In this document: piece by piece, positions 6,676-9,578 of the stretch
Numbering within the stretch: the first letter of the stretch is position 1
How the letters are laid out: every line of letters begins with the position of its first letter
Origin: Vitreimonas flagellata
GTDB lineage: Bacteria > Pseudomonadota > Alphaproteobacteria > Caulobacterales > Aquidulcibacteraceae
Assembly: GCF_004634425.1 (NCBI RefSeq)
Contig: NZ_SBJL01000002.1
Location: 806,001-870,000 of the forward strand
Length of the DNA: 64,000 nucleotides
Reading direction: 5' to 3'
Notes under the pieces: generated by a model
The model's input: the letters and a program-made list of their open reading frames with translations, nothing else
What the model was told of the DNA's origin: nothing
The model's database searches: none
Position numbers and translations under genes: made by a program

Positions 6676-7971
6676 ATGACCGAGGCGACAAAAAAGGGCG
6701 GCATCCCGCTCCATGTGCTGATGCTGCTGGGCTTTGCGATCGGCCTCGGCGCTGGTCTTTGGGTAAACATGAATATCGGCGGCGAGGAGCCGTGGGTGGT
6801 TTGGCTGACGAGCAATGTCACCGGGCCGCTTGGGCAGATCTTCCTGCGCTTGCTGTTCATGCTCGTGCTGCCGCTTTTGTTCAGCGCGCTCGTGGTTGGC
6901 GTTGCGGAAATGGGCGATTTGAGCGCGCTCGGCCGCGTGGGCTGGAAGACGCTGCTGATGACGGTCGTGATCTCGACCATCGCGGTGTTGATCGGCTTGG
7001 GCATGGTCAATGCGCTGCGACCGGGCGACGGCGTCGATCCCGCACTTGCACAACAACTCCTGGCGCAGGGCGCGGAGGGTGCGGCCGGCATTGTCGAGAA
7101 CGCGCCCGAAAGCGTGCAGCTCGGTCAATTCTTCCTCGATCTCATTCCGCAAAACGTCTTCGCAGCTGCGAGCGCCAATCTCGTTTTGCCGGTGATGGTG
7201 TTTGCGCTGCTGTTCGGGATCGGCCTGGTGCTGGTGCGTTCGCCGGCGACGGATCAGCTGCAGCTGACCATCGCGGGCATTTTCGAAGTGATGATGAAGC
7301 TCATCAACATCGTCATCAAACTCGCGCCGATCGCCATTGCCTGCTTGATGTTCAATCTGGCGGCATTGTTCGGTTGGGATTTGCTAATCCGATTGGCTGC
7401 GTTCGTGGGCGTCGCTGTCGGCGCGATGGCGATCCACATGTTCGTCGTCTATCCACTCTGCATCTGGCTGCTCGCGGGTCGCAATCCGCTTAAATTCTTC
7501 AGCGACGTGCGCGAACCGATCGTGGTGGCCTTCTCCACTGCATCGTCCAACGCCACCCTCCCCGTCTCGATGCGCGCCGCGGAGACCGAGCTCAGTTTGC
7601 CGCGCCGGATCGCGCGCTTCGTGCTGACTGTTGGGGCCACCGCCAATCAGAACGGCACGGCGTTGTTCGAGGGCGTCACGGTGCTCTTCCTAGCGCAATT
7701 CTTCGGCATCGAGCTTTCGATCAGCCAGCAGGTCATCGTCATGCTGGTCTGCATCCTCGGCGGTATCGGCACGGCCGGCGTGCCAGCAGGCTCGTTGCCC
7801 GTGATCGCGATGATCCTGGTGATGGTCGGCATTCCGCCCGAGGGCATCGGCCTCATCCTCGGCGTCGACCGCTTCCTCGATATGTGTCGCACCACGCTCA
7901 ACGTGACCGGCGATCTCGTGGTCGCGACGGTTGTTTCACGCGGCGAGAAAGACCCCGAACCGACGATCTAG
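6676..7971 (+). CDS. Dicarboxylate/amino acid:cation symporter (DAACS/SDF family)
   Basis: This 431-residue inner-membrane transporter has multiple hydrophobic helices. Hairpin motif ASSNATLP (family SSSxxTLP) is near residue 291, ATANQNGTALFEG (family NMDGT) near 320, and the C-terminal NVTGDLVVATVV is also present. Relatives such as DctA and GltP import C4-dicarboxylates or glutamate with H+ or Na+. It is divergent from the PQQ dehydrogenase across a 133-bp gap that should contain both promoters. Substrate cannot be decided from sequence alone. Confidence 0.92.
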   Translation: MTEATKKGGIPLHVLMLLGFAIGLGAGLWVNMNIGGEEPWVVWLTSNVTGPLGQIFLRLLFMLVLPLLFSALVVGVAEMGDLSALGRVGWKTLLMTVVISTIAVLIGLGMVNALRPGDGVDPALAQQLLAQGAEGAAGIVENAPESVQLGQFFLDLIPQNVFAAASANLVLPVMVFALLFGIGLVLVRSPATDQLQLTIAGIFEVMMKLINIVIKLAPIAIACLMFNLAALFGWDLLIRLAAFVGVAVGAMAIHMFVVYPLCIWLLAGRNPLKFFSDVREPIVVAFSTASSNATLPVSMRAAETELSLPRRIARFVLTVGATANQNGTALFEGVTVLFLAQFFGIELSISQQVIVMLVCILGGIGTAGVPAGSLPVIAMILVMVGIPPEGIGLILGVDRFLDMCRTTLNVTGDLVVATVVSRGEKDPEPTI

Positions 7972-7987: not shown

Positions 7988-8003
7988 TGTGACGCGAGTC
8001 ACG
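7988..8003. promoter_or_regulatory. CRP/FNR-family-like palindrome upstream of the small-protein genes
   Basis: The sequence TGTGA-N6-TCACG matches the E. coli CRP consensus TGTGA-N6-TCACA at 9 of 10 fixed positions. It lies 67 nt before the first small ORF and 17 nt after the symporter stop, a suitable place to control transcription of the small genes. Which regulator binds is unknown. Confidence 0.4.
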
Positions 8004-8027
8004 GCGGCTCAGATCAGACGAGCATAG

Positions 8028-8068
8028 GGTCTTGCTCATGGAAGCGATGGGCTTCCGGGAGCAAGACC
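8028..8068 (+). promoter_or_regulatory. Leader hairpin that buries the first small ORF's ribosome-binding site
   Basis: GGTCTTGCTC (8028-8037) pairs perfectly with GAGCAAGACC (8059-8068). An inner stem GGAAG/CTTCC (8040-8044 with 8052-8056) closes a 7-nt loop. The Shine-Dalgarno GGGAG at 8057-8061 falls in the bulge and 3' arm, and the ATG at 8070 follows 1 nt after the stem. An 11-codon frame, MEAMGFREQDQ, runs from 8038 to 8073 inside the hairpin and overlaps the small ORF start as ATGA, so translational coupling is possible. Confidence 0.5.
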
Positions 8069-8069
8069 A

Positions 8070-8165
8070 ATGACCGCCAAGTTCTACAGCCTGATCATCG
8101 CCGCTTTGACGTTCGCGCCGTTCGCCTACGCGACGCTGAACCAAGCCGCTCAGATCGTCGCCTAA
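8070..8165 (+). CDS. Small hydrophobic protein, 31 aa (copy 1 of a tandem pair)
   Basis: This 31-codon frame runs from ATG at 8070 to TAA at 8163-8165. Its sequence AKFYSL...APFAYATLNQ matches the C-terminal half of the next frame at 14 of 23 aligned positions: both have AKFYxL, APFA and TLNQ in the same order and spacing. The middle is hydrophobic enough for one membrane or amphipathic helix. Conservation between two tandem frames, each with its own Shine-Dalgarno, argues that it is translated. I do not recognise the family. The upstream hairpin may control its translation. Confidence 0.6.
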   Translation: MTAKFYSLIIAALTFAPFAYATLNQAAQIVA

Positions 8166-8194
8166 GCCGCAATACAAAGCCGAGGGAAAACATC

Positions 8195-8335
8195 ATGCAT
8201 CCGCAAGCCGCCCAAGCCGCCGCCGCCAGCTTCGACACCGCCGCCAAGCCGGCCGTCGCCAAGTTTTACGCTTTGCTCTTCGCCTTCATGGCCGCAGCGC
8301 CCTTCGCGATGAGCACGCTGAACCAGATCGCATAA
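8195..8335 (+). CDS. Small hydrophobic protein, 46 aa (copy 2 of a tandem pair)
   Basis: This 46-codon frame starts at an ATG with GAGGG 8 nt upstream. An Ala-rich N-terminal extension of about 20 residues leads into AKFYAL...APFAMSTLNQIA, the same core as the preceding 31-residue protein. The two genes are 29 nt apart and probably share a transcript that ends at the hairpin near 8381. Function is unknown. The pattern of a short polar lead, a hydrophobic stretch and an invariant TLNQ end suggests a membrane-associated micropeptide rather than an enzyme. Confidence 0.6.
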   Translation: MHPQAAQAAAASFDTAAKPAVAKFYALLFAFMAAAPFAMSTLNQIA

Positions 8336-8380
8336 GTCATCGCAAAGCTCCCTGCGATGAACTTGGCGAGGTTCAAGAAG

Positions 8381-8409
8381 AAGGGCGCGGTGGCCAACAC
8401 CGCGCCCTT
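8381..8409. terminator. Hairpin between the small-protein genes and parB
   Basis: A perfect 12-bp stem (AAGGGCGCGGTG at 8381-8392 with its complement at 8398-8409) closes a 5-nt loop. It lies between convergent transcripts. The tail on the plus strand is only weakly T-rich (CGACGTTT), and the minus-strand side reads CTTCTTG, so it may act as a modest bidirectional terminator. Confidence 0.6.
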
Positions 8410-8468
8410 CGACGTTTCACGATTTGCATCCGCCCTGCCCTGTGCCGGGCCGGGCTTCCTCCCGAAGC

Positions 8469-9578
8469 TCAGAAGCCGCCGCGCAGACGACGCATGACGT
8501 CGTCCAATTGCTCGAGCGTTTTGTAGCTGACCTTCAGTTCGCCGGCGCCGCCCTTGTCGGTGATCGTCACCTCAAGGCCGAGTGCATTCGACAAGCTCTG
8601 CTCCAGCGCGCGCGTATCGGCGCTCTTCTCGGCAAGAGCCACCGGCGCAGCCGCGCCAGCACGGGGCCCATGCTTTTCATCCTTGGCTTGCTGGGCAAGG
8701 CGCTCGACTTCGCGGACGTTCAGCCCTTCGCTCAGCACGCGTTGCGCGAGGCCACGCGGATCGGGCGCGGTCAGGATCGCTCGGGCATGGCCGGAGCTGA
8801 GGCGACCGTCGCGCACCATCTCTTGCAGGTCGTCCGGCAGCTTCAGCAGGCGCAGCATGTTCGCGATATGAGGCCGCGACTTGCCGACGGCTTCGGCGAT
8901 CTCTTCCTGCGTGCGGCCAAACCGATCGATCAGAGCCTGAAAGCCCTGCGCTTCTTCGATAGGGTTCAGGTCGGTCCGCTGGACGTTCTCGACGATCGCG
9001 ATTTCGACGACTTCAACTTCGTTGAGGTCGCGCACCACCGCGGGGATCGTGTGCAGTCCGGCGCGTTGCGCAGCGCGCCAACGACGTTCACCGGCGACAA
9101 TCTCAAACCGGCCATCGGCGATCGGGCGCACGAGGATCGGTTGCAGCACGCCGTGCGTGCGAATCGAATTCGACAGCTCGGTCAGGTCGGCTTCGTCGAA
9201 GTGCTTACGCGGCTGTTGCGGGTTGCGTTGCACCAGGTCGATCGAGATCGTGCGCGGGCCGGCCTCCCCTGCGGCGGCCTGGGGCGGGGCCGAAGCGGGT
9301 GCGGCAGGCGCAACAGGAACAGCTGGCGGGGCGGCCGGTTCGCCGAACACAGACCTCGGCGCAGCAGGGGCCGGCGCAGGTTGCGGCGGATTGTTCGCGG
9401 CGATCGGCAGCTCGAACACATTGCGCGGCGGCTCGATCGGCGCGCGCGGCGGTTCGGCTTGCGGCTGGGCCCAGGAGTTCACGGGCGTCGGCTGAGCGGC
9501 CGGCGGCTCGGTACGGACAGGCTCGCCCAGCAATGCTGACAGCCCGCGCCCCAGCCCCCGTGGTCTTAAATCGCTCAT
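8469..9578 (-). CDS. parB: Chromosome partitioning protein ParB
   Basis: This 369-residue CTPase/DNA-binding protein loads at parS and spreads to segregate the origin region. A Pro/Ala-rich linker of about 100 residues follows the N-terminal RGLGRGLSALLGE motif, which contacts ParA. The ParB/Srx domain contains GERRWRAAQRAG and IVENVQRTDLNPIEEA, the HTH region contains EIAEAVGKSRPHIANMLRLL, and a C-terminal dimerisation segment ends the protein. It lies 85 nt downstream of parA on the same strand. The linker is long compared with many ParB proteins, a trait of Caulobacter-type homologues. Several parS-like sites lie within the next 9 kb. Confidence 0.97.
   Translation of the reverse strand: MSDLRPRGLGRGLSALLGEPVRTEPPAAQPTPVNSWAQPQAEPPRAPIEPPRNVFELPIAANNPPQPAPAPAAPRSVFGEPAAPPAVPVAPAAPASAPPQAAAGEAGPRTISIDLVQRNPQQPRKHFDEADLTELSNSIRTHGVLQPILVRPIADGRFEIVAGERRWRAAQRAGLHTIPAVVRDLNEVEVVEIAIVENVQRTDLNPIEEAQGFQALIDRFGRTQEEIAEAVGKSRPHIANMLRLLKLPDDLQEMVRDGRLSSGHARAILTAPDPRGLAQRVLSEGLNVREVERLAQQAKDEKHGPRAGAAAPVALAEKSADTRALEQSLSNALGLEVTITDKGGAGELKVSYKTLEQLDDVMRRLRGGF

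Follow-up and report, generated by a model that had tools for sequence, protein, structure and literature searches.

The dual-function RNA VcdRP of Vibrio cholerae encodes the 29-amino-acid (aa) protein VcdP, carries a CRP site at its promoter and uses four cytosines as its seed; AzuCR of E. coli is named alongside it (excerpts of PMC8672173). In NfeR1 (alpha-r14), C-rich anti-Shine-Dalgarno motifs are kept while the stems diverge, and in CcaF1-CcsR a small protein gene lies in the same transcript as small RNAs (sRNAs) (excerpts of PMC10746234 and PMC10253847). The C-rich loop of GsrN from Caulobacter pairs with a G-rich sequence of messenger RNA (mRNA), according to an excerpt of PMC5869019. 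Here, we analyzed two small open reading frames (ORF1 and ORF2, 31 and 46 aa) in a stretch of 64,000 nucleotides (nt) of the Vitreimonas flagellata genome (contig NZ_SBJL01000002.1, positions 806,001 to 870,000), hereafter the window. The pair is one unit of a dispersed family of micropeptide genes. The best reading of this family, to which we give about an even chance, is that of dispersed CRP-controlled RNAs of the dual-function type which encode membrane or exported micropeptides.

A typical family copy is MTKFYALIAACAVFAPMAFATLNQAAQIVA. The family was defined by K/R, a hydrophobic stretch, P-x-A and QAA-x-hydrophobic-hydrophobic-A at the C-terminus; ORF1 has all of these, and ORF2 has the core without the full tail. 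With the 31-mer as tblastn query, 24 places were found in its own 3.9-Mb genome at an expectation value (E) ≤ 10 and 23 at E ≤ 0.01. These genome-wide copies ruled out a local duplication only. A profile built from 18 own-genome peptides found 24 own-genome places at E ≤ 0.01. By profile search, 29 of 30 genomes of the genus, own genome included, contained 1 to 24 copies each, and all 20 genus genomes with a completeness of 90% or more and a contamination of 5% or less matched. Homologues in sister genomes, on which an earlier note on this DNA had made its interpretation depend, are therefore present in 28 of the 29 other genomes of the genus. In a sample of the order (299 genomes) 40 genomes matched, comprising 29 of the genus, seven others of the same taxonomic family and four elsewhere (11 of 269 outside the genus). 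Three of the seven matched at E 1e-4 or weaker only, and the four were borderline (E 0.001 to 0.009). A wider profile found only the own genome in a class sample of 385 genomes at E 0.001 (0 of 384 others). The N-terminal codon pattern was found in 55 stretches of named records, all metagenome-assembled, with titles naming Hyphomonadaceae, Caulobacterales, Caulobacteraceae, Alphaproteobacteria and once Terricaulis sp. For further analysis, 161 distinct copies were collected from fetched loci, after removal of matches below 15 bits, matches without a nearby start codon and peptides longer than 70 aa.

The earlier note could not link the peptides to a named family, and neither could we: the window peptides had no match over the cut-off in Pfam, NCBIfam, PHROGs or PADLOC. 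The best Pfam match was a sub-threshold one of the 46-mer to YmgM (E 0.25, 12.2 bits versus a cut-off of 27); the scans of NCBIfam, PHROGs and PADLOC gave no match. A known Rfam element was rejected, as a scan of the window gave nothing at the gathering score. Family peptide strings were not found in the literature searched, and the titles and abstract beginnings of the matches listed for small proteins (Caulobacter, Hyphomonadaceae) and for type I toxins contained no such family. Phage or plasmid cargo was likewise rejected, with no plasmid or phage match at E ≤ 1 (one 30-mer as query).

Selection on the reading frame was quantified with coding sequences (CDS) of exactly 30 codons (127 CDS, 106 different peptides). 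In 55 non-overlapping nearest pairs 300 synonymous and 176 non-synonymous differences were counted, giving a ratio of non-synonymous to synonymous differences per site (pN/pS) of 0.20 and a pooled ratio of the corresponding substitution rates (dN/dS) of about 0.17. Third positions held 51% of the differences. By segment, pN/pS was 0.18 for residues 4-15, 0.24 for residues 16-20 and 0.20 for residues 21-30. These values point clearly to purifying selection on the family reading frame. Thus the earlier note's proposal of selected micropeptides stands up to the dN/dS comparison it had named, with translation being inferred from selection. In the window's own species and two related genomes (G005 and G023), ORF1 differed by 0 non-synonymous and 2-3 synonymous changes per pair. 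In the same three species the core of ORF2 had a pN/pS of 0.117, and its N-terminal extension one of 0.81; because of this difference the extension appears to be young or unimportant. The many dispersed copies with repeated flanking elements could also be taken for a non-coding repeat or mobile element with chance ORFs. This is highly improbable, given the third-position bias, the dN/dS value, the occupation of the same site between parB and a symporter gene in several species, and the lack of a plasmid or phage match for the one peptide searched. As a separate observation, 120 of the 127 copies encode the conserved Gln24 (window 8142-8144) by CAA and 6 by CAG; for Gln27 in the same genes the ratio is 40 to 47, and in the genes of the window CAA makes up 51%. 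This bias hints at a nucleotide-level constraint inside the ORF, in copies that are related and not independent.

By their sequence, most family units look like small transcription units of their own: a class II CRP-type promoter and a short leader hairpin are followed by one or two ORFs, each of about 30 codons, and by a 3' hairpin. A GTGAC-N4-GTCAC palindrome (at least 9 of 10 bases) was found upstream of 97 of the 111 first or single copies and of none of the 50 second copies. When these 97 promoters were stacked without gaps, TANNTT emerged at a constant distance (its four defining columns having T 93, A 94, T 78 and T 94 of 97) and was exact in 75. With TANNTT as the presumed -10 box, the centre of the palindrome falls at -41.5, which is the position of CRP at class II promoters. 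Given this -10 box, the 97 promoters have the TGTGA-N6-TCACA-like site at -41.5 that defines the class II CRP type. The exact palindrome occurs at 12 own-genome places, eight of them before family copies (reversed control, one place). The composite pattern of palindrome and -10 box occurs at 13 own-genome places, 11 of them before family copies, and its reversed control was absent from all 30 genus genomes. The window promoter lies outside these 13 owing to its TAGGGT. Twelve of the 14 palindrome-less copies belong to loci with further copies nearby, the other two being L085 and the weak match L028.

A profile for the CRP-like helix-turn-helix (HTH) gave 12 matches in the own genome, eight of them over the cut-off. 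The protein at C1:1320224 has a cyclic nucleotide-binding (cNMP-binding) domain and the recognition helix GASREKVNR, which we take to be of the CRP type, and is a candidate for the CRP-like regulator. Five other matches are presumably FNR-, FixK- or DNR-like.

Some observations on promoters stand apart. Upstream of palindrome-less copies, mostly inside arrays, a GCATCC...GGCATCT-like motif was read by eye and may represent another type of promoter (L027 at C2:279-281 kb of the own genome; further loci L082-L085, L088 and L090). The weak match L028 (C2:86195), which has no palindrome, immediately precedes the genes of a membrane-type protein and an HTH regulator and may be unrelated. An identical or similar operator lies ahead of three other genes, for a 153-aa protein that looks exported and is present in related genomes too (L250, C3:435455), a 95-aa membrane-type protein (L093, C2:427670) and a CARDB-domain protein (L094, C3:123206). 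These three are possible further members of the regulon.

In many family leaders a hairpin lies just before or around the ribosome site, and 77 of 99 distinct first or single leaders contain the Shine-Dalgarno sequence GGAGC. The window leader folds with -24.4 kcal/mol from position 8030 and with -12.1 kcal/mol from 8037. When hairpin arms were swapped between 87 leaders, the cognate arms paired better than the swapped ones (z -10.5 for the inner and -8.0 for the outer stem). For 23 dissimilar leaders z was -2.5 and -3.4, respectively, and the relatedness of the sequences weakens this test. According to these folds the leader hairpin may hide the ribosome site, depending on the true transcript start.

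The peptides were aligned after removal of matches below 20 bits (132 kept) and of one unaligned sequence (n = 131). A single K/R precedes the hydrophobic part in 119 peptides, the tail is exactly 10 residues long in 117, and no K/R follows P16 in 125. In the 127 CDS of 30 codons, A stands at residue 18 in 126, one of A, S, T or G at residue 20 in 119 and P at residue 16 in 126. The count of A18 in the alignment (131 of 131) is forced by the alignment rule; 126 of 127 is the unforced one. A wider alignment shows no variation at P16, A18 and A26 and almost none at A10, Q24 and A25, while the hydrophobic region (h-region) drifts.

This pattern would suit an exported peptide: residues 1-20 would form a cleavable Sec signal peptide with P, A and a small residue at -5, -3 and -1, and signal peptidase I (SPase I) would free a C-terminal decapeptide (TLNQAAQIVA type) that acts as a signal or structurally in the periplasm or outside. 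The single K/R, the 10-residue tail and the fixed positions amid a drifting h-region agree with export. However, eight of the 106 distinct 30-aa peptides break the -1 rule with V, M or I, and the hydrophobic stretch is constrained like the tail (pN/pS 0.18 versus 0.20). Further, the conserved window variant ORF2 combines a short tail (TLNQIA) with a long N-extension, and no receptor or importer was seen beside the own-genome copies. We therefore regard export with cleavage as possible, if doubtful. The residues fit a signal peptide and equally a kinked membrane helix, and because the window variant is short-tailed and N-extended, the helix itself is favoured as the presumed active part.

A hydrophobic helix might also act as a type I toxin-like module, in which the peptide would depolarise the membrane when over-made and would be restrained by the leader hairpin and anti-Shine-Dalgarno loops. 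The size, the single helix with a proline, the many copies, the tandem layout and a ribosome site that can be hidden all resemble this class as outlined in an excerpt of PMC8309996. Against it stand the uncharged C-terminus (see the count after P16), the regulated promoter, purifying selection, retention of the window site in several species and the absence of a PADLOC match, so that a toxin is unlikely.

In the survey of 3' ends, copies with a following copy or with too little or repeated downstream sequence were dropped, which left 106 copies (49 last in a tandem, 57 single). A CTCC loop on a stem was found in 35 of the 49 tandem-last copies and 8 of the 57 singles, compared with 4.5% in shuffled sequences, and a GCTCC loop in 33 of 49 and 4 of 57, respectively. 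The surveyed loops are mostly NNGCTCCC, and none contains CCTCCTCCC. Long hairpins with a CTCC loop are otherwise rare: none of five in the window and five of 25 in the 18 own-genome loci had one, four of these five being peptide units. Thirty hairpins were picked, all with GCTCC in the loop and with 11 or more pairs in a stem free of breaks. In these, 97.1% of cells pair, 54 cells carry double changes (15.0 in shuffles) and the covariation score is 0.433 (0.171 in shuffles), figures that are favoured by the picking for stem and loop. A covariance model of the 30 hairpins was run on five genomes, and by position all 16 places at E ≤ 1e-8 lie just after family copies; several of these places are sequences used to build the model. 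Eight further or weaker places were read. Five of them (L190, L187, L200, L197 and L198, with L187 also among the 16) are units that had not been collected and may be among the profile matches beyond those listed; the second gene of L187 is again N-extended. The L193 hairpin (loop ATCTCCC) ends a listed family copy on the other strand, and the L199 and L201 hairpins belong to other genes and have no CTCCC loop. L198 (G023:C1:3387249) deserves separate mention as a family copy with an early frameshift in which the leader and a GCTCCCC hairpin are retained.

The window loop AAGCTCCC sits on a hairpin of its own, separate from the terminator-like one. It is identical in G005 and G023 (three species), and the G005 hairpin has one compensated stem pair. 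The idea that the loop is specific to family ribosome sites was weakened: a first comparison favoured it, and matching for GGAG removed most of the effect. In the matched comparison of 79 family ribosome sites with 21 other GGAG sites of the window, the window's own loop was predicted to pair better with the family sites (p = 0.0007).

These data bear on a simpler explanation, in which the genes encode ordinary small membrane proteins, with 3' hairpins that serve termination alone and a GCUCC loop that plays no part in base pairing. In its favour, many singles have long stems capped by a tetraloop, for example GCGA or GCAA, and after GGAG matching two of three loops show no family-specific pairing. 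Contrary to it, loop identity is kept and stem changes are compensated (in hairpins picked for both), CTCC loops are rare in other long hairpins, and the window loop is unchanged in three species on a hairpin apart from the terminator. We consider this explanation rather unlikely, at a level between those of the exported decapeptide and the toxin.

Under the preferred reading of CRP-controlled dual-function-type RNAs, a CRP-like regulator, with C1:1320224 as the candidate, would turn on many copies together, and translation would be limited by the leader hairpin. The peptides would insert into the inner membrane N-in/C-out via one hydrophobic helix, possibly being cut after A-x-A, and would tune an envelope or metabolic function. 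The 3' loop would base-pair as an anti-Shine-Dalgarno element with mRNAs that have GGAG ribosome sites, those of the family itself among them, and would reduce their translation. Such a unit would be a many-copy counterpart of VcdRP and AzuCR, the CRP-controlled dual-function RNAs.

Several results weigh against this reading. The CTCC loop is missing in 14 of the 49 tandem units and in 49 of the 57 singles, the covariation figures are favoured by the picking mentioned above, and the two common loops are not predicted to pair better with the family sites in the matched comparison (p = 0.25 and 0.11). The only link of C1:1320224 to the operator is its recognition helix, and the helix of another regulator, C4:427651, is partly similar (GARREAVTL). 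Leaders fold only modestly above shuffles (mean z -0.6 from +1 and -1.4 from -6, versus +0.4 for CDS pieces). A transcript from the predicted +1 leaves out the outer hairpin arm and its ribosome site is largely free; indeed, mean ribosome-site pairing exceeds 0.7 in 3% of 87 leaders when folded from +1 and in 40% from -6. Finally, no common partner gene was apparent, the own-genome neighbours looking unrelated by their first residues (only the two in the window were scanned against libraries).

A bolder version of the preferred reading is a genome-wide regulon of dual-function RNAs in which up to two dozen copies, mostly governed by a single CRP-type switch, would each give rise to a closely similar exported decapeptide. 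The anti-Shine-Dalgarno loops at the 3' ends of tandem units would feed back on the whole family, forming a peptide signalling or envelope-tuning circuit. We hold this to be decidedly unlikely, a shade below the toxin. To our knowledge, no peptide signalling or envelope-tuning circuit of that kind is known from Gram-negative bacteria.

The elements of the window unit are listed in Table 1. Both ORFs lie exactly where the earlier note had placed them, each with its own Shine-Dalgarno-like sequence and with the 29-nt spacer it gave (8166-8194). Counting along AKFYSLIIAALTFAPFAYATLNQ and AKFYALLFAFMAAAPFAMSTLNQ reproduced the 14 identities in 23 aligned residues. The note's tandem duplication is real as a related pair, but it is not merely local and belongs to a dispersed family with common promoter and RNA elements. 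Its shared terminator also held in part: a hairpin of 13 base pairs follows ORF2, but there is no clear T-run (tail GACGTTTC). The operator palindrome, the strong leader hairpin, the second 3' hairpin and the membership in a family of many units go beyond that note.

Table 1. Elements of the micropeptide unit, numbered from the first base of the window.
Element	Position	Strand	Basis
Palindrome GTGACGCGAGTCAC, putative CRP-type operator	7989..8002	+	Sequence; centred about -41.5 from predicted start
-10-like TAGGGT, 22 nt past palindrome	8025..8030	+	Stack of 97 family promoters; fifth base departs
Leader hairpin, outer stem TCTTGCTC/GAGCAAGA, inner stem GGAAGC/GCTTCC, holds Shine-Dalgarno	8030..8066	+	Fold, arm-swap test
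Shine-Dalgarno GGGAG of ORF1	8057..8061	+	Sequence
ORF1, 31-aa micropeptide MTAKFYSLIIAALTFAPFAYATLNQAAQIVA	8070..8165	+	tblastn, selection
Shine-Dalgarno-like GAGGG of ORF2	8182..8186	+	Sequence
ORF2, 46-aa variant: weakly constrained 22-aa N-extension, conserved core, shortened tail	8195..8335	+	Also in G005 and G023
3' hairpin TCATCGCA[AAGCTCCC]TGCGATGA, putative anti-Shine-Dalgarno loop 8345-8352	8337..8360	+	Directly after ORF2 stop; comparison with G005 and G023; fold
Terminator-like hairpin GAAGGGCGCGGTG[GCCAA]CACCGCGCCCTTC	8380..8410	+	Sequence

The ORF pair is flanked by a dicarboxylate symporter gene (6676-7971, Pfam SDF) on one side and by the chromosome-partition gene parB (8469-9578, minus strand, Pfam scan) on the other. 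Two related genomes (G005 and G023) hold the pair between the same two genes. Further loci combine a family copy with the symporter, with parB or with the two of them (the latter, for example, in L120, L146 and L040), which shows that the site is more widely shared. In addition, four family loci lie roughly 10-13 kb apart beside parB in the own genome (C2:778-814 kb), and a similar row of family copies is found at 4113-4154 kb of G023.

The many-copy micropeptide family suggests an undescribed control system. It has no name and no match over the cut-off in four family libraries, although one genome carries 24 copies and 28 of the 29 other genus genomes match, and its genes occupy 11 of the 13 own-genome places that show the composite pattern of a CRP-type promoter. 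Natural variation offers over 100 versions of a single small unit of promoter, leader, peptide and RNA loop (106 distinct 30-aa peptides), and the co-regulation of micropeptides and their own RNA is thereby open to a mutational test in a culturable relative.

Ldr and Ibs toxins occur in several copies. Like the membrane-associated type I toxins Ldr, Ibs, Fst and TisB, the family peptides have fewer than 60 aa and a hydrophobic helix, with a ribosome site controlled at the RNA level in that class (excerpt of PMC8309996); they differ in having no charged tail and a regulated class II-type promoter. GsrN is also a C-rich-loop RNA, from the family Caulobacteraceae, but it is an sRNA under stress sigma-factor control, and the excerpt of PMC5869019 mentions no peptide. 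In alpha-r14/NfeR1 and CcsR the motif is CCUCCUCCC, whereas the family loop is GCUCC(C), and the protein linked to CcsR is a DUF1127 protein (CcaF1), whereas the family peptide is unrelated and hydrophobic. The signature of alpha-r14 and the cuckoo RNAs (CcsR) was not seen here: the surveyed loops lack the CCUCCUCCC motif, and the window peptides have no Pfam match over the cut-off, hence no DUF1127. Because this motif and this domain are absent, and targets and translation are putative here, the family is not filed under NfeR1, CcsR, GsrN or VcdRP/AzuCR. VcdRP and AzuCR are single-copy RNAs. Both resemble the family in joining a small protein and a CRP site at the promoter of a short RNA (excerpt of PMC8672173). 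In contrast to these CRP-repressed RNAs, the promoter spacing of the family predicts activation; its units, for which we claim no sequence relation to either RNA, are many-copy, often have two ORFs and carry the loop in or near the terminator.
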